A DNA stretch of 64,000 nt from Streptomyces pluripotens (GTDB lineage: Bacteria; Actinomycetota; Actinomycetes; Streptomycetales; Streptomycetaceae). The DNA lies in NCBI RefSeq assembly GCF_000802245.2, contig NZ_CP021080.1:5270001-5334000 (forward strand), in the 5' to 3' direction. Below the pieces are notes generated by a model. That model saw only the letters and a program-made list of their open reading frames with translations. It was not told the DNA's origin and ran no database searches. A program made the position numbers and the translations under genes. Shown here piece by piece: positions 54,056 to 59,836 of this stretch (its first letter is position 1; each line of letters begins with the position of its first letter).

Positions 54056-55498
54056 CTACCGCTCGGCGCTCAGGCTCAGGGCCGCTCCGGACTCCGTGTC
54101 CGCAGCGGCCCTGCCGCGTTCCGGGGAGAGCGTCAGCAACAGGTACACCGCTCCGCCCACCGCGCCCGACAGCAGGAAGCTGCAGTCCACGCCACCGGTC
54201 AGCGTCAGCAGCGGGCCCTGGTACGACGGCAGCGACACCGCCAGCAGACCGACCACGGCACCGGCCGTCCAGGAGACGGTGGCCCGCAGGTTCCAGCCCG
54301 CCCGGTACCAGTAGATCCCGCCCCGGGAACGGCGGTTGAAGACCTGCAGGGCATCGGCGTCGTACACCCCGCGGCAGCGGGCGAAGCCGATCAGGGTGAT
54401 GACCGCCCACGGGGTGCCGATCGCGGTGAGCAGGAGGACGAAGGACGTCATCGCCGACTGCGCGTCCCAGGCGTAGTGACCGGCGAAGACACAGGCGGTG
54501 GCGACGGCCGCGACGGTGTAGGTGGCCCGGGCACGCGACGCCCGGGGCAGGATGGCGTCCAGGTCCAGGCCCATCGAGTACAGCATCAGGCCCGCGTTGC
54601 CGACCGAGCCGGCGGAGGCGGACAGGAGCAGCGGGACCAGGTACCAGGTGGGGGAGGCTGCGACCAGCGGGCCCGCGTAGTCGAGGGCCGCGTGCGCGCC
54701 GTACGCCGTGAAGGTGCCGAACAACTGCGGCACCAGCAGCCCGAGAACCAGACCGAGCCAGGTGGCGTGCAGGACGCGGCGGCCGGAGTGACGGGCGGGG
54801 GAGATGTAGCGGGTGTAGTCGCCGAGCAGGGTGATGAAGGCGATCGGTCCGGACAGGCCGGCCGCCACCGCCGCGAGCAGCCAGGTCGGCCAGAAGGACC
54901 CGAGCAGATAACCGCCCGCGTCCGGCAGAGCCGACGTGGTGAAGTGGGGGGCGTAGGCGAGGATGCCGAGGGCGAGCAGCGCGCTCATGCCGATGGCCAG
55001 CACCTTGGACATGGCGAGCAGTACCCGGTAGCCGTAGACGGCGCCGGCGACCGTGGCCGCGGCGAGCACCGTGTAGACGACGGCGTACGACCCCCCGTTC
55101 GCGGTCAGCCCGAACATCCGGCCGAGCACACTGAGCATCACGTCCCCGCCGATCCACACCGTCAGCGCGGTGTAGCCCAGCGCCAGCAGCAGACCGACCA
55201 CCGAGCCGACCAGTCGGCCGCGGACGCCGAACTGGGCGCCGGAGGAGGTGGAGAGGTTGGTCGCGGTACGCAGTGAGATCAGGGCCAGTGGGGCGGTCAC
55301 GGCGGTGCCGACCACCGTGCCGACCACGATGGAGCTGACCGAGGACCACCAATCGAGCCCGAACGACGGCGGCAGCCAGCCGAAGATGATCACCCCGAGG
55401 CAGAGGTTGGATCCGAGCAGGATCGAGACGAGGTCGCGCGGACCGCTGGTCCGCTCCTCGTCCGGGATGGTGTCGACGCCGTGCTGTTCGATCGGCAT
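54056..55498 (-). CDS. NCS1 family permease (purine-cytosine permease type)
   Basis: 480 residues from ATG at 55498, with AAGGAGACC upstream. About twelve membrane segments; the opening GPRDLVSILLGSNLCLG and the loop LGDYTRYISP are NCS1 features. Known members import cytosine, allantoin, hydantoins, purines or pyridines with protons or sodium. It is divergent from the urease-like genes, and two copies of the operator palindrome lie just upstream of its start. It is therefore probably the importer for the compound handled by that operon. Confidence 0.92.
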   Translation of the reverse strand: MPIEQHGVDTIPDEERTSGPRDLVSILLGSNLCLGVIIFGWLPPSFGLDWWSSVSSIVVGTVVGTAVTAPLALISLRTATNLSTSSGAQFGVRGRLVGSVVGLLLALGYTALTVWIGGDVMLSVLGRMFGLTANGGSYAVVYTVLAAATVAGAVYGYRVLLAMSKVLAIGMSALLALGILAYAPHFTTSALPDAGGYLLGSFWPTWLLAAVAAGLSGPIAFITLLGDYTRYISPARHSGRRVLHATWLGLVLGLLVPQLFGTFTAYGAHAALDYAGPLVAASPTWYLVPLLLSASAGSVGNAGLMLYSMGLDLDAILPRASRARATYTVAAVATACVFAGHYAWDAQSAMTSFVLLLTAIGTPWAVITLIGFARCRGVYDADALQVFNRRSRGGIYWYRAGWNLRATVSWTAGAVVGLLAVSLPSYQGPLLTLTGGVDCSFLLSGAVGGAVYLLLTLSPERGRAAADTESGAALSLSAER

Positions 55499-55529
55499 GG
55501 CTGGTCTCCTTCGACGGCCGCCAGGTGGT

Positions 55530-55544
55530 TTGAGCGACGCTCAA
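55530..55544. promoter_or_regulatory. Operator copy 1 of the permease/urease-like divergent promoter
   Basis: TTGAGCGACGCTCAA, a perfect 15-bp palindrome, 31 bases upstream of the permease start codon. Consensus of the three copies: TWGAGYGAYGYTCWA. Confidence 0.7.
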
Positions 55545-55550
55545 TGCGAT

Positions 55551-55565
55551 TTGAGCGACGTTCAA
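55551..55565. promoter_or_regulatory. Operator copy 2
   Basis: TTGAGCGACGTTCAA, one mismatch to copy 1 and centred exactly 21 bases away (two helical turns), so two repressor dimers could bind side by side. Confidence 0.7.
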
Positions 55566-55619
55566 TGTGGCGCGAAGCCTCGGTCCCGGTCAATGCTTCT
55601 GTTTCAGGAATTCTGCGTT

Positions 55620-55634
55620 TAGAGTGATGCTCTA
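55620..55634. promoter_or_regulatory. Operator copy 3, overlapping the urease-like promoter
   Basis: TAGAGTGATGCTCTA shares the GAGYGAYGCTC core of copies 1 and 2. Its TAGAGT end resembles a Streptomyces -10 hexamer, and it lies 28 bases before the urease gamma-beta gene, so a bound repressor would cover that promoter. Confidence 0.6.
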
Positions 55635-55662
55635 ACTTGGTAGGGCAAGGAGGTGCCGCATC

Positions 55663-56385
55663 GTGAGACTCACCCCCACGGAACGTGACCGGCTGCTGCT
55701 CTTCGGGGCCGCCGAGCTAGCGCGGGCACGCCGGGCGCGCGGTCTGCGGCTGAACGTGCCGGAGGCCACCGCGTTGATCGCGGACACCGTTTGCGAGGCG
55801 GCCCGGGACGGCAGGCGGCTCGTGGAGGCCATCGAAGCCGCCCGGTCGGTGCTCGGTCCCGAGGACGTCCTGCCGGGGGTCGCCGACGTCGTCACCGAGG
55901 TGATGGTCGAGGCTGTCTTCGACGACGGCTCCCGGCTCGCGGTGGTCTCCGATCCCATCGGCGGTGGCCTCGGCGAGGACGCCCCGGGCGCGCTGCTGCC
56001 CGCGTCCGAACACGCCGACCCCCGGCCGGTCCTGCGGGTCCAGGTCACCAACACCGCCACCGTGCCCATCTCCGTCACCTCCCACTTCCACTTCTTCGAG
56101 GCCAACCCACGCCTCGACTTCGACCGCCCGGCCGCCTACGGCATGCGGCTCGCGGTACCCGCAGGGTCCTCGGTCCGCTTCGGGCCGGGGCAGCGCGAGG
56201 AGGTGGGGCTGGTCCCGATCGGCGGCGAGCGCGTCGCCATCGGCTTCGCCGGTCTGGTCGACGGGCCACTGGACGCACCCGGCGCACAGGAAGAGGCCCT
56301 GCGCAGGGCGGCGGCCTGCGGATACCTCGGAGTCACGCACGCCGTCACGAACCCCGCTGTGCCGGAAGGAGACGAAGAGCGATGA
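55663..56385 (+). CDS. ureAB: Fused urease gamma-beta subunit
   Basis: 240 residues from GTG at 55663, with AAGGAGG upstream. Residues 1-100 are a urease gamma subunit (RLTPTERDRLLLFGAAELAR and AARDGRRLVEAIEAARSVL). From about residue 115 the beta subunit follows (VTSHFHFFEANPRLDFDR, then RFGPGQREEVGLVPIGGER). Such fusions occur in several bacteria. They build the scaffold of the enzyme with the alpha subunit, whose ATG overlaps this stop. The usual accessory genes ureDEFG are absent here. Confidence 0.92.
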   Translation: MRLTPTERDRLLLFGAAELARARRARGLRLNVPEATALIADTVCEAARDGRRLVEAIEAARSVLGPEDVLPGVADVVTEVMVEAVFDDGSRLAVVSDPIGGGLGEDAPGALLPASEHADPRPVLRVQVTNTATVPISVTSHFHFFEANPRLDFDRPAAYGMRLAVPAGSSVRFGPGQREEVGLVPIGGERVAIGFAGLVDGPLDAPGAQEEALRRAAACGYLGVTHAVTNPAVPEGDEER

Positions 56386-58106
56386 GCCGCTCTAAAGGAC
56401 GAGAGGTGAGCCGGGCGGTCCGGGTCGACCCGCACGCCTACGCGGCCACCCACGGCCCCCGTACCGGGGACCGCATCCGCCTCGGCGACTCGGGTCTGAC
56501 CATCCGTGTCGAGTCCGACTCGCAGCGGTACGGCGACGAGTTCCTGGCCGGCTTCGGCAAGACGGCCCGCGACGGACTGCACCTCAAGGCCGCCGCCGTC
56601 CGTGACACCTGCGACGTCGTGATCAGCAACGTCGTCGTGATCGACGCGACCCAGGGCATCCGCAAGGTCTCCATCGGCATCCGTGAGGGCCGCATCTGCG
56701 CCATCGGGCGAGCCGGCAACCCGGACACCCTCGACGGGGTCGACGTCGTCGTCGGCACCGGCACCTCCATCGTGTCCGGCGAGGGGCTCATCGCCACCGC
56801 CGGTGCCGTCGACACCCATGTCCACCTGCTGTCGCCGCGCATCATGGAGGCCTCCCTCGCCTCCGGCGTGACCACGATCATCGGGCAGGAGTTCGGTCCG
56901 GTCTGGGGCGTCGGCGTCAACTCGCCCTGGGCACTGCGCCACGCCTTCGGCGCCTTCGACGCCTGGCCGGTCAACATCGGTTTCCTCGGCCGGGGCTCGT
57001 CCTCGTCGCAGGCGCCGCTGATCGAGGCACTCGCCGAGGGCGGTGCCTGCGGTTTCAAGGTGCACGAGGACATGGGCGCCCACACCCGGGCCCTGGACAC
57101 CGCTCTACGGGTGGCCGAGGAGCACGACGTCCAGGTCGCCCTGCACAGCGACGGCCTGAACGAGTGCCTGTCCGTGGAGGACACCCTGAAGGTGCTTCAG
57201 GGGCGCACGATCCACGCCTTCCACATCGAGGGCTGCGGTGGCGGGCACGTGCCCAATGTGCTCAAGATGGCCGGCGTCCCGAATGTCATCGGCTCTTCCA
57301 CCAATCCCACCCTGCCCTTCGGTCGGGACGCGGTCGCCGAGCACTACGGCATGATCGTCTCCGTCCACGACCTCAAGACCGACCTGCCCGGCGACGCGGC
57401 CATGGCCCGCGACCGCATCCGGGCCGGCACCATGGGCGCCGAGGACGTGTTGCACGACCTGGGCGCGATCGGGATCACCTCCTCCGACGCCCAGGGCATG
57501 GGCCGGGCCGGCGAGACGGTCCGTCGCACGTTCGCCATGGCCGGCAAGATGAAGGCCGAGCTGGGCCCCATGGCAGGTGACGGCGAGGGCGACGACAACG
57601 CCCGGGTACTGCGCTACCTGGCCAAGCTGACCATCAACCCGGCCATCGCCCACGGACTCTCGCACGAGGTCGGCTCCATCGAGACCGGCAAGCTGGCCGA
57701 CATCGTGCTGTGGCGCCCGGAGTACTTCGGCGCCAAGCCGCAGCTCGTCCTCAAGGCCGGCTTCCCCGCGTACGGCGTCACCGGCGATCCCAACGCGGCC
57801 ACCGACACCTGCGAACCCCTGGTTCTCGGACCACAGTTCGGCTCGTACGGCGCCACGGCCGCCGACATCTCCGTCGCCTTCGTCGCCCAGGCCGCCGTCG
57901 ACCAGGGCGGTGACACGATGCCCACGCGCCGCCGCCGGGTCGCCGTGCGCGGCACCCGTGGCATCGGCCCCGCGGACCTGCGTCTGAACGCCCGTGTCGG
58001 CGCGGTCGACGTCGACCAGCGCACCGGCCTGGTCACCCTCGACGGCGATCCGCTGCGTTCCGAGCCCGCTGCCACGGTCTCCCTCAACCGTCTCTATTTC
58101 CTGTGA
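56382..58106 (+). CDS. ureC: Urease alpha-subunit-like amidohydrolase, divergent pocket
   Basis: 574 residues from ATG at 56382, overlapping the upstream stop by ATGA. All nickel-ligand positions of urease are present: His146 and His148 (DTHVHL), Lys226 (GFKVHED, the carbamylated Lys), His255 (ALHSDGLNE), His281 (FHIEGCGGGH) and Asp369 (SSDAQGMGR). The catalytic flap His is kept (His329, SVHDL), but the flap Cys is Val328. The GGGTGPAAG loop reads GQEFGPVWG (168-176), HIHW is HVHL, and the pocket Ala of SDSQAMG is Gly. Either a divergent urease or a related hydrolase with another amide or ureide substrate. Confidence 0.88.
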   Translation: MSRSKGREVSRAVRVDPHAYAATHGPRTGDRIRLGDSGLTIRVESDSQRYGDEFLAGFGKTARDGLHLKAAAVRDTCDVVISNVVVIDATQGIRKVSIGIREGRICAIGRAGNPDTLDGVDVVVGTGTSIVSGEGLIATAGAVDTHVHLLSPRIMEASLASGVTTIIGQEFGPVWGVGVNSPWALRHAFGAFDAWPVNIGFLGRGSSSSQAPLIEALAEGGACGFKVHEDMGAHTRALDTALRVAEEHDVQVALHSDGLNECLSVEDTLKVLQGRTIHAFHIEGCGGGHVPNVLKMAGVPNVIGSSTNPTLPFGRDAVAEHYGMIVSVHDLKTDLPGDAAMARDRIRAGTMGAEDVLHDLGAIGITSSDAQGMGRAGETVRRTFAMAGKMKAELGPMAGDGEGDDNARVLRYLAKLTINPAIAHGLSHEVGSIETGKLADIVLWRPEYFGAKPQLVLKAGFPAYGVTGDPNAATDTCEPLVLGPQFGSYGATAADISVAFVAQAAVDQGGDTMPTRRRRVAVRGTRGIGPADLRLNARVGAVDVDQRTGLVTLDGDPLRSEPAATVSLNRLYFL

Positions 58107-58156
58107 CGTTCGCCCCGCGGTGACGTTCGTCAGCCTCCGTCAGACAAGGACCCCCT

Positions 58157-59197
58157 ATGACCACCCCCGCCGCCGACGGCTTCCGCATGCCTGCCGAGTG
58201 GACCCCGCACGAGCGCACCTGGATGGCGTGGCCGGGCCCCAACCCGACCTTCGACGATCCGGACGACCTCGCCGCCTCCCGTACCGCCTGGGCGTCCGTC
58301 GCCCGCGCCGTCCGCCGTTTCGAACCGGTGACGGTCGTATGCGGTCCCGGCCAGTCGGCGGACGCGAAGGCACTGCTCGGTCCGGACATCGACACCGTCG
58401 AGCGCGACCTCGACGACGCCTGGATGCGCGACATCGGCCCCACGTTCCTCACCAACGGCAGCGGCGAACTGGCCGCCGTGGATTGGACGTTCAACGGTTG
58501 GGGGGCCCAGGGCTGGGCCCGCTGGGAGCACGATTCCAAGATCGCAGCTCATGTCTCGGACCTGGCCGGCGCCACGACCTACGCCTCGAAGCTGGTCAAC
58601 GAGGGCGGCGCGATCCACGTCGACGGTGAGGGCACCGTCCTGCTCACCGAGACCGTGCAGCTCGGCCCCGAGCGCAACCCGCACTGGTCCAGGAGCGAGG
58701 TCGAGGCCGAGATCCACGCCCACCTCGGCACCAGCAAGGCGATCTGGCTGCCACGCGGCCTGACCGGCGACTACCCGCCCCACGGCTTCGGCACCCTCGG
58801 CCACGTCGACATCGTCACCGCCTTCGCCCGCCCCGGTGTCGTGGTCGCGCACCACCAGCCCGACCCGGCCCACCCGGACCACGAGGTGACCCGCGAGGTC
58901 ATCGGCATCCTGAAGTCGGCCACCGACGCACGCGGCCGTCGTCTGGAGGTCGTGGAAGTGCCGGCCCCGACCGTTCTGGAGGCCGACGGCCACTGGGTCG
59001 ACTACTCCTACATCAACCACTACCTGTGCAACGGCGGCCTCGTACTGTGCGGCTTCGACGACCCGCGCGACGAGACGGCCGCCGGGATCTTCCGCCGTCT
59101 CTTCCCCGAGCGGACCGTCACCCTCGTCGACGCACGTACGATCTTCGCGGGTGGCGGCGGTATCCACTGCATCACCCAGCAGCAGCCGAAGGTGTGA
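58157..59197 (+). CDS. Agmatine deiminase family protein
   Basis: 346 residues from ATG at 58157. Guanidino-group-modifying enzyme of the agmatine/peptidyl-arginine deiminase fold: AWMRDIGPTF (Asp), LVNEGGAIHVDGEG (Glu), LGHVDIVTAF (His) and GGGIHCITQQQP with the nucleophile Cys338. The family hydrolyses a guanidine to a ureido compound and ammonia. It lies 50 bases after the urease-like gene in the same operon, so its ureido product could be the substrate of the urease-like enzyme. Agmatine itself is not proven. Confidence 0.92.
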   Translation: MTTPAADGFRMPAEWTPHERTWMAWPGPNPTFDDPDDLAASRTAWASVARAVRRFEPVTVVCGPGQSADAKALLGPDIDTVERDLDDAWMRDIGPTFLTNGSGELAAVDWTFNGWGAQGWARWEHDSKIAAHVSDLAGATTYASKLVNEGGAIHVDGEGTVLLTETVQLGPERNPHWSRSEVEAEIHAHLGTSKAIWLPRGLTGDYPPHGFGTLGHVDIVTAFARPGVVVAHHQPDPAHPDHEVTREVIGILKSATDARGRRLEVVEVPAPTVLEADGHWVDYSYINHYLCNGGLVLCGFDDPRDETAAGIFRRLFPERTVTLVDARTIFAGGGGIHCITQQQPKV

Positions 59198-59221
59198 TCA
59201 GGGCGAGGAGATGAGCGGGAG

Positions 59222-59836
59222 ATGGCCAAGGCGGCCCGCGCGCGCAGGAACGCGCCGTCGCGCGAGGAGGTACTGGCAGCCGCCATGGCGATGATCGCCG
59301 AGCGTGGCCTGGAGAAGCTCACCATGGCGGCGCTCGGCCACGAGGTCGGCATGAGCAGCGGCCATCTCCTCTACTACTTCCACTCCAAGGACGAGCTGCT
59401 GCTGCAGACTCTGGAGTGGAGCGAGGGCCGCCTCGGCGCCGAGCGCGGTCGCCTGCTCACCCGGAGCGGTTCGGCACGCGAACGTCTCGACGCCTACATC
59501 GACCTGTACGTCCCCGACCGGCACGGCGACCCGCACTGGACGCTCTGGCTGGAGGTGTGGAACCGCTCCAAGAACGCCGATGCCGACGGCCGCGACCGTC
59601 AGGCCGCCATCGAGGGGGCCTGGCACCGCGACCTGGCGGCCCTGCTCGCCGAGGGCATCTCGCGCGGCGAGTTCCGCCCGGTCGACCCCGACCGCTTCGC
59701 CGCCCGGTTGCGTGCCCTCCTCGACGGCTTCTCGATCCACGTGGCGATCGGTCTGCGCGGCACGGACCGGGAACAGGTGCTGTCCCATGTGCGGGAGTTC
59801 GTCGCCGAGACCCTGCTGGCACCTCCATCCGGGTGA
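59222..59836 (+). CDS. TetR family regulator of the urease-like/permease unit
   Basis: 204 residues from ATG at 59222, 24 bases after the deiminase gene. Helix-turn-helix near residues 14-55 (LTMAALGHEVGMSSGHLLYY), followed by a C-terminal domain of the BetI-like group. It is the last gene of the operon. It is the natural candidate to bind the three palindromes at 55530-55634 and to respond to the transported compound or a breakdown product. Confidence 0.9.
   Translation: MAKAARARRNAPSREEVLAAAMAMIAERGLEKLTMAALGHEVGMSSGHLLYYFHSKDELLLQTLEWSEGRLGAERGRLLTRSGSARERLDAYIDLYVPDRHGDPHWTLWLEVWNRSKNADADGRDRQAAIEGAWHRDLAALLAEGISRGEFRPVDPDRFAARLRALLDGFSIHVAIGLRGTDREQVLSHVREFVAETLLAPPSG

Follow-up and report, generated by a model that had tools for sequence, protein, structure and literature searches.

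The window analyzed here is a stretch of 64,000 nucleotides of Streptomyces pluripotens (contig NZ_CP021080.1, positions 5,270,001 to 5,334,000 of the forward strand). The subject of this work is a group of five genes within it that encodes a urease-like enzyme, referred to as UreABC2, next to AgDI, a guanidino deiminase of the agmatine deiminase family. The features of this group, in window coordinates, are:

54056-55498, minus strand: NCS1-family permease, 480 aa, divergently transcribed, probable importer; PF02133, 344.6 bits (cut-off 23.5)
55530-55544, no strand: operator-like palindrome 1, TTGAGCGACGCTCAA; 14 of 15 bases self-complementary
55551-55565, no strand: operator-like palindrome 2, TTGAGCGACGTTCAA; 12 of 15 bases self-complementary
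55619-55635, no strand: operator-like palindrome 3, TTAGAGTGATGCTCTAA; 6-bp arms, 67% match to copy 1, near the ureAB start
55663-56385, plus strand: ureAB, urease gamma-beta fusion, 240 aa; PF00547, 120.1 bits; PF00699, 109.1 bits; PRK13192, 322.2 bits (cut-off 243)
56382-58106, plus strand: ureC2, divergent urease alpha subunit, 574 aa; PF00449, 134.9 bits; PF01979, 151.1 bits
58157-59197, plus strand: AgDI, agmatine-deiminase-family (PAD_porph) guanidino deiminase, 346 aa; PF04371, 362.5 bits
59222-59836, plus strand: TetR regulator with a BetI-type C-terminal domain, 204 aa, last gene of the operon; PF00440, 48.2 bits; PF13977, 84.6 bits

Gene calls (made with our own codon-usage caller, which misses genes in lower-GC genomes), Pfam matches and the intergenic sequence agree with the preliminary description of this DNA, in which the five genes form a divergent pair of transcription units sharing one promoter region with three palindromes. 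The palindromes lie inside the 164-bp region between the permease gene and ureAB. The start of ureC2 overlaps the end of ureAB by ATGA, and gaps of 50 and 24 bp separate ureC2 from the AgDI gene and the AgDI gene from tetR, respectively. The unit is flanked by leuB and ilvE before the permease gene and by a leuA-like gene after tetR. When the loci of 80 named relatives were scanned with the window's own palindrome motif, allowing up to 3 mismatches, the motif was found at most 250 bp before ureAB in 77 of them (85 matches in 19,750 bases, against a background of 17 in the remaining 1,626,294 bases of these loci), an enrichment that exceeds chance; in several relatives a like element, comparable to palindrome 3, lies about 44 bp before ureAB. 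The TetR protein contains the TetR_N helix-turn-helix and a ligand domain, and with these palindromic candidate operators nearby it would repress both transcription units. The permease scores 50.1 bits with TIGR00800, below the cut-off of 353.1. Within the unit, neither gene calls nor Pfam revealed urease accessory genes, and a plain ureABC-EFGD operon is thus rejected. The earlier view of a nickel-type urease homologue differing from that operon holds. The genome's canonical ureABC, together with its one UreD and one UreF match, is found about 4.8 Mb away.

UreC2 as a separate clade with a changed pocket

UreC matches in 61 related genomes fall into two bands, one of 76-100% identity to the window's UreC2, found in 25 genomes (21 of the 37 of the same genus, the window's included, and 4 of the same order), and one of at most 49%. 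In an even sample of 396 genomes across the phylum, UreC2 occurs in nine, all of the same genus, and a tenth match of 50% identity is a canonical-type UreC. The window's protein is 90-96% identical to the UreC of named Streptomyces, and proteins of this clade are annotated 'urease subunit alpha' in many members of the genus. A tree of 27 UreC proteins joins UreC2 to a group encoded in nonribosomal peptide synthetase (NRPS) clusters (support 100/99), with canonical ureases (100/99) and a third UreC type (100/100) standing separately. UreC2 passes the urease alpha subfamily model PRK13207 (750.6 bits, cut-off 354) and misses the equivalog model TIGR01792 (645.7 bits, cut-off 680). Judged by an identity of 45-50%, its fold as a urease alpha subunit is not in doubt.

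The residues of the active site were surveyed in 101 UreC2 rows (98 distinct sequences) and 9 rows of canonical urease. Positions are numbered as in K. aerogenes urease, and the roles given to them are those that we assume. The six metal ligands (H134, H136, the carbamylated K217, H246, H272 and D360) are invariant in all 101 UreC2 rows, as are H219, the catalytic H320 and R336. The pocket, on the other hand, does not have the architecture of a urea site (GG at 157-158, the A167 loop, C319 and A363): G157-G158 is replaced by QE and A363 by G in 101 of 101 rows, V (95 rows) or A (6 rows) takes the place of the flap residue C319, H321 has become D in 97, and the A167-bearing loop is shortened by four residues. 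The canonical rows differ from this pattern, save one that has G363, and the A167 position varies among them. UreABC2 hence resembles canonical urease, encoded by ureABC-(E)FGD, in its subunit set (a gamma-beta fusion plus alpha), metal ligands, H219, H320 and R336, and differs from it in these pocket changes, in the missing accessory genes, in forming a clade of its own and in standing beside AgDI in the loci examined, the NRPS sister group apart. Because the metal ligands are kept while the pocket residues are changed, UreC2 is probably a working hydrolase with a different, roomier substrate site.

The main rival explanation is that UreABC2 is an ordinary second urease, the urea being supplied by AgDI or another neighbor (e.g., from guanidine) or by purine degradation. 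The kept ligands and catalytic histidine would suit such an enzyme, as would the PRK13207 score. We nevertheless regard this as unlikely, given the missed equivalog cut-off, the pocket positions changed in every UreC2 row, and the presence of a canonical urease in the window's genome and of a canonical-type UreC match of 45-49% in at least 17 other UreC2 genomes. Far less probable still is that UreABC2 is catalytically dead or has an unrelated role and is retained for another reason. UreC2 is absent from 16 of the 37 same-genus genomes, hence dispensable, and has lost the flap cysteine throughout, both of which would fit lost catalysis. However, the ligands and H320 do not vary across the 98 distinct sequences, and the association with AgDI recurs in different arrangements (described below). 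Loss of the metal site was rejected, since all ligands are kept.

Gene pairs of this kind have been described before. In 2008, S. coelicolor and S. avermitilis were reported to have an ure(AB)C pair that lacks accessory genes (PMC2492869, available part). By gene structure, the sequences not being aligned, the S. coelicolor pair SCO5525-SCO5526 is the counterpart of the window's pair, which it resembles in the missing accessory genes; the available part of that paper mentions it solely among urease clusters of a UreC tree, with no link to AgDI. The accessible text of PMC3293853 lists SCO5525-5526 as urea-utilising and reports no effect of arginine or ArgR on it, and arginine control of the unit was accordingly set aside. 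PMC4991794 was discarded as a source on SCO5526, as in its accessible portion that number denotes a ribonucleotide reductase operon, not this gene. In PMC5489568, as far as its available text goes, ure(AB)C is counted among urease genes and only 15 of 31 isolates were urease-positive. The classification of ure(AB)C as urease or urea-utilising in PMC3293853 and PMC5489568, both in available part, thus speaks for the ordinary-urease explanation. The urease annotation of this large clade in many Streptomyces is probably wrong, and urease gene counts such as those in the available part of PMC5489568 would be inflated by it.

UreD and UreF are present in 24 of the 25 UreC2 genomes, the window's included; neither was found in G017, a draft of 1140 contigs (G and L numbers denote genomes and loci of this survey). 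In G040, G045 and G047, UreC2 is the only urease alpha subunit found and ureF-ureG-ureD stand alone; in G044, a free-standing ureFGD exists in addition to a canonical operon that includes accessory genes of its own. The three genomes with UreC2 as the only urease alpha found would also suit an ordinary urease. Because ureFGD is kept there, this distribution speaks for UreC2 being served by the accessory proteins, and its metal would be loaded in trans by UreD, UreF and UreG encoded elsewhere.

The sister group of UreC2 consists of a UreAB-UreC pair, 67% identical to UreC2, in a conserved NRPS cluster on three Streptomycetaceae plasmids (L114, NZ_CP108786.1; L115, NZ_CP109401.1; L116, NZ_CP109047.1). 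Its neighbors are FkbM/NRPS genes (in two of the three), a stand-alone condensation-domain gene, an APH-type phosphotransferase gene, a gene for a 528-aa protein without a Pfam match (checked in L115) and a gene, at cut-off, resembling 2-oxoglutarate-Fe(II) oxygenases. A fourth record, from Kitasatospora (H2), carries no annotation. This sister clade (100/99) shares with UreC2 the changes at 157-158 (QN/QE), in the loop and at C319 (V), but it lacks an AgDI neighbor, keeps A363 and has R in place of H321. The third, deep UreC type (L227 in G067, L226 in G281, and L261-L263 in G302, G095 and G174) shows V-H at the flap, with the A167 loop shortened still further; its neighbor is AgDI in two genomes and a polyamine ABC transporter resembling PotABCD in three (G302, G095 and G174). 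L227 was not used as support, AgDI being adjacent only in G067 among the 10 genomes found, three of which have the polyamine-type ABC transporter instead.

A constant deiminase and its exchangeable hydrolase partners

The preliminary description had proposed a survey of gene-neighborhood conservation and had named neighbors that fail to occur together in related genomes as grounds for rejecting its inference. The inference withstands this test, AgDI and UreC2 being conserved together: AgDI adjoins UreC2 in 25 of 25 genomes and in 79 of the 80 named loci, the sole exception being L052, where the contig ends 36 bases after ureC. PAD_porph proteins are found in all 25 UreC2 genomes and in 9 of the 27 without UreC2 (Fisher p 1.2e-7, ignoring common descent). 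The window's AgDI, aligned with the Arabidopsis enzyme, carries all four of the Asp, Glu, His and Cys motifs, which we take to be catalytic; across 64 AgDI loci the Glu and His motifs are each present in 64, the Cys motif in 62 and the Asp motif in 54. A TetR gene lies near UreC2 in 78 of the 80 named loci.

The importer is less regular. As regards the NCS1 permease, which had been described as an importer of the purine/ureide class, what stands is its presence near UreC2 in 63 of the 80 named loci; what does not is its constancy, as it is missing in 17 (in one of these the contig ends 5' of UreC2) and an APC permease or an oligopeptide-type ABC transporter serves in other variants. The NCS1 permease is thus not a constant member of the unit. 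Nothing stands between ilvE and ureAB in L037, L041, L047, L063 and L098, and in L108, the sixth of the six such loci listed, another gene sits before ureAB; no NCS1 gene was seen near UreC2 in genomes G040, G044, G045 and G047. These absences bear on another explanation, in which the compound broken down is a ureide or hydantoin (such as allantoate or ureidoglycolate), UreABC2 being a ureide amidohydrolase and AgDI a side activity. The NCS1 family, which by its Pfam description includes allantoin, hydantoin and purine carriers, would agree with such a route. It is, however, improbable in view of the missing permeases and of a constant partner that is a guanidino deiminase and not a ureide enzyme.

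Other arrangements retain the pairing. In G002, AgDI precedes ureAB, and a different NCS1 protein (28% identity) and a TetR gene lie alongside. The second UreC2 copies of G004, G012 and G409 occur with different AgDI paralogues (43% to the window's) and with additional AgDI genes, several with starts resembling those of exported proteins; G004 and G409 also have an ABC transporter whose solute-binding protein belongs to family 5. The loci L126 (G004), L151 (G409), L188 and L189 each hold three to five agmatine-deiminase-family genes, several with twin-arginine (Tat)-like N-termini as judged by eye, and in these clusters, beside an oligopeptide-type ABC transporter, deimination outside the cell is possible.

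The partners of window-type AgDI were surveyed in 296 genomes of the class, of which 65 had a match; 64 places were examined, G684 being left out for its partial match, and the flanks of the 21 Streptomyces loci extended only 1.5 kb. At these 64 loci the partner is UreC in 25, an AguB-like nitrilase in 16 and a PRK06565-type amidase in 12. None was detected in 11, three of which (L286, L307 and L310) stop at the end of a contig or close to it, L307 with an 88-aa nitrilase fragment. Two partners never occur together, and none of 20,000 random draws gave zero overlap (ignoring common descent). UreC lies within 4.5 kb of AgDI in 20 of the 21 Streptomyces loci and in 5 of the 43 others. The loci L325 and L334, counted as UreC, have the order AgDI-ureAB-ureC and a UreC only 52% identical to the window's; these deep members share the QE motif, the shortened loop and G363. 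Neither a nitrilase nor an amidase was found in what was examined of 89 UreC2 loci; for the 80 named loci the flanks were mostly longer.

The same exchange is seen between clusters of another type. In G041, G042 and G043, which have no UreC2, the cluster is of the G004/G409 type and a nitrilase adjoins AgDI in place of ureAB-ureC2, the deiminase, regulator and transporter genes of G041 and G043 being 51-75% identical to those of the UreC2-type clusters. The swap is thereby repeated in a second AgDI lineage: among clusters whose deiminases and ABC transporter genes are 52-75% identical, L126 and L151 carry UreABC2, and L188 and L189 a nitrilase. A tree built from 79 AgDI proteins requires 9 changes of the UreC label, losses counted, at least 8 of them forced by well-supported branches, although long branches leave some joins unsure; judging from this tree, hydrolase partners have switched repeatedly. 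The best NCBIfam match of the nitrilases beside AgDI is TIGR03381, N-carbamoylputrescine amidase, with 232-241 bits in the G041-G043 type. To our knowledge, neither nitrilases nor amidases are expected to split urea, and their occupation of the same place beside AgDI argues against UreABC2 being an ordinary urease. The PRK06565-type amidase, found beside window-type AgDI in 12 of the 64 loci, is possibly a third ureido hydrolase. In L319, L326 and L329 an NCS1 gene accompanies AgDI and the amidase. Read from its gene content, the module is composed of an importer of variable kind, AgDI and one of three unrelated hydrolases, often with a TetR-type regulator.

One nitrilase-type locus, L229, has a window-type AgDI (53%) and an AguB-like nitrilase behind amine-catabolism genes and an APC permease gene. 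It encodes a primary-amine oxidase (889.4 bits, cut-off 651), a gamma-aminobutyrate (GABA) transaminase (TIGR00700, 585.1 bits, cut-off 506.65) and an enzyme resembling succinate-semialdehyde dehydrogenase (547 bits, under the cut-off of 646.35), a gene content that matches what conversion of agmatine to putrescine, GABA and succinate would need. Nitrilases of the same family (254-265 bits) are found in most Streptomyces, and members of the family in 38 of the 39 genomes searched. The presence of a dedicated AguB elsewhere was accordingly set aside as a discriminator for UreC2 genomes, being uninformative, and TIGR03381 matches under the cut-off should not be read as AguB. The window's own genome has, at L259, two such nitrilases (TIGR03381, 254.8 and 260.7 bits) together with aminotransferase-like, hydantoinase-like and NCS1 genes, a cluster that probably serves a reductive pyrimidine or hydantoin route.

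A candidate route for guanidino compounds

We favor, with reasonable though far from full confidence, the reading of this unit as a regulated catabolic operon for a guanidino compound, the likeliest being agmatine or something close to it, in which UreABC2 acts on the ureido product of AgDI. In this pathway, the NCS1 permease would import the guanidino compound, and AgDI, judged from its family and conserved motifs, would remove NH3 from the guanidino group, leaving a substituted urea (R-NH-CO-NH2). UreABC2, as a presumed nickel enzyme with a rebuilt pocket, would then split the ureido group to R-NH2, CO2 and NH3. Hydrolysis of a ureido product is proposed because no other reaction explains why three unrelated amide-type hydrolases should follow a guanidino deiminase, and the partner swap lends independent support to deimination followed by ureido hydrolysis. 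The same sequence of steps had been suggested from the window alone, and as a hypothesis it gains from the conserved neighbors and from the swap at the 64 loci.

The type of pathway is known. In the AguA-AguB route, agmatine is converted to N-carbamoylputrescine and then to putrescine (PMC9397018, available part), as likewise described in the accessible text of PMC3534580. The UreC2 unit resembles it in that an AguA-family deiminase adjoins a hydrolase whose expected substrate is an N-carbamoyl product, and in other Actinomycetes an AguB-like nitrilase accompanies members of the same AgDI subfamily. It differs in its NCS1 importer, in an AgDI that scores below the AguA cut-off, in the lack of an adjacent AguB nitrilase and in assigning the second step to an enzyme of the urease family. 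UreABC2 would thus replace AguB, the N-carbamoylputrescine amidase of the standard route, by non-orthologous replacement. Within a guanidino-catabolic reading, agmatine and N-carbamoylputrescine as the actual pair are a tentative assignment, to which we give somewhat less than even odds. The chances appear evenly balanced for the proposition that UreABC2 is a nickel enzyme that in the cell hydrolyzes an N-substituted urea (N-carbamoylputrescine, for instance) rather than urea, as one of three unrelated enzymes behind the same deiminase, and that its sister group was recruited into the biosynthesis of peptide natural products.

Several observations weigh against guanidino catabolism with ureido hydrolysis by UreABC2. 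We know of no NCS1 carriers for cations like agmatine, and the window's AgDI reaches only 318.3 bits with TIGR03380, below the agmatine deiminase cut-off of 381.8. Some Streptomyces (L182, L183 and L187) have AgDI and a TetR gene at the same locus without UreC2, which implies that the hydrolysis step is dispensable or done elsewhere. The nitrilases linked to AgDI score 172-241 bits, under the TIGR03381 cut-off of 410.25; because sub-cut-off nitrilases are widespread, the family name does not fix their substrate, and a nitrilase could act in trans. Moreover, 10 of the 12 amidase-linked AgDIs lack the D-x-W-x-RD-x-GP motif, so that the deiminases may not all share one substrate. Lastly, the free-standing ureFGD lies inside purine-degradation clusters in G040 (L145; beside urate oxidase, hydroxyisourate hydrolase and OHCU decarboxylase genes) and G044 (L148; beside xanthine dehydrogenase), which fits a urea or ureide substrate and so favors both the ordinary-urease and the ureide explanations; no purine-degradation genes were recognized near it in the stretches examined of G045 (L146) and G047 (L147).

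Among the papers listed in searches of the open-licence literature, none connects urease-type proteins with agmatine deiminase or with the hydrolysis of ureido compounds; subscription papers were outside this scope, and prior work may exist there. The new evidence presented here is the one-of-three partner pattern, the residue pattern of UreC2 and its sister clade inside NRPS clusters. In most accounts urease is specific for urea. If the proposed role of UreABC2 is true, it would represent a second chemistry for the urease scaffold and a third way of hydrolyzing the ureido product of a guanidino deiminase. It would moreover exemplify repeated non-orthologous displacement and offer a clue to what the urease relative does in NRPS clusters.

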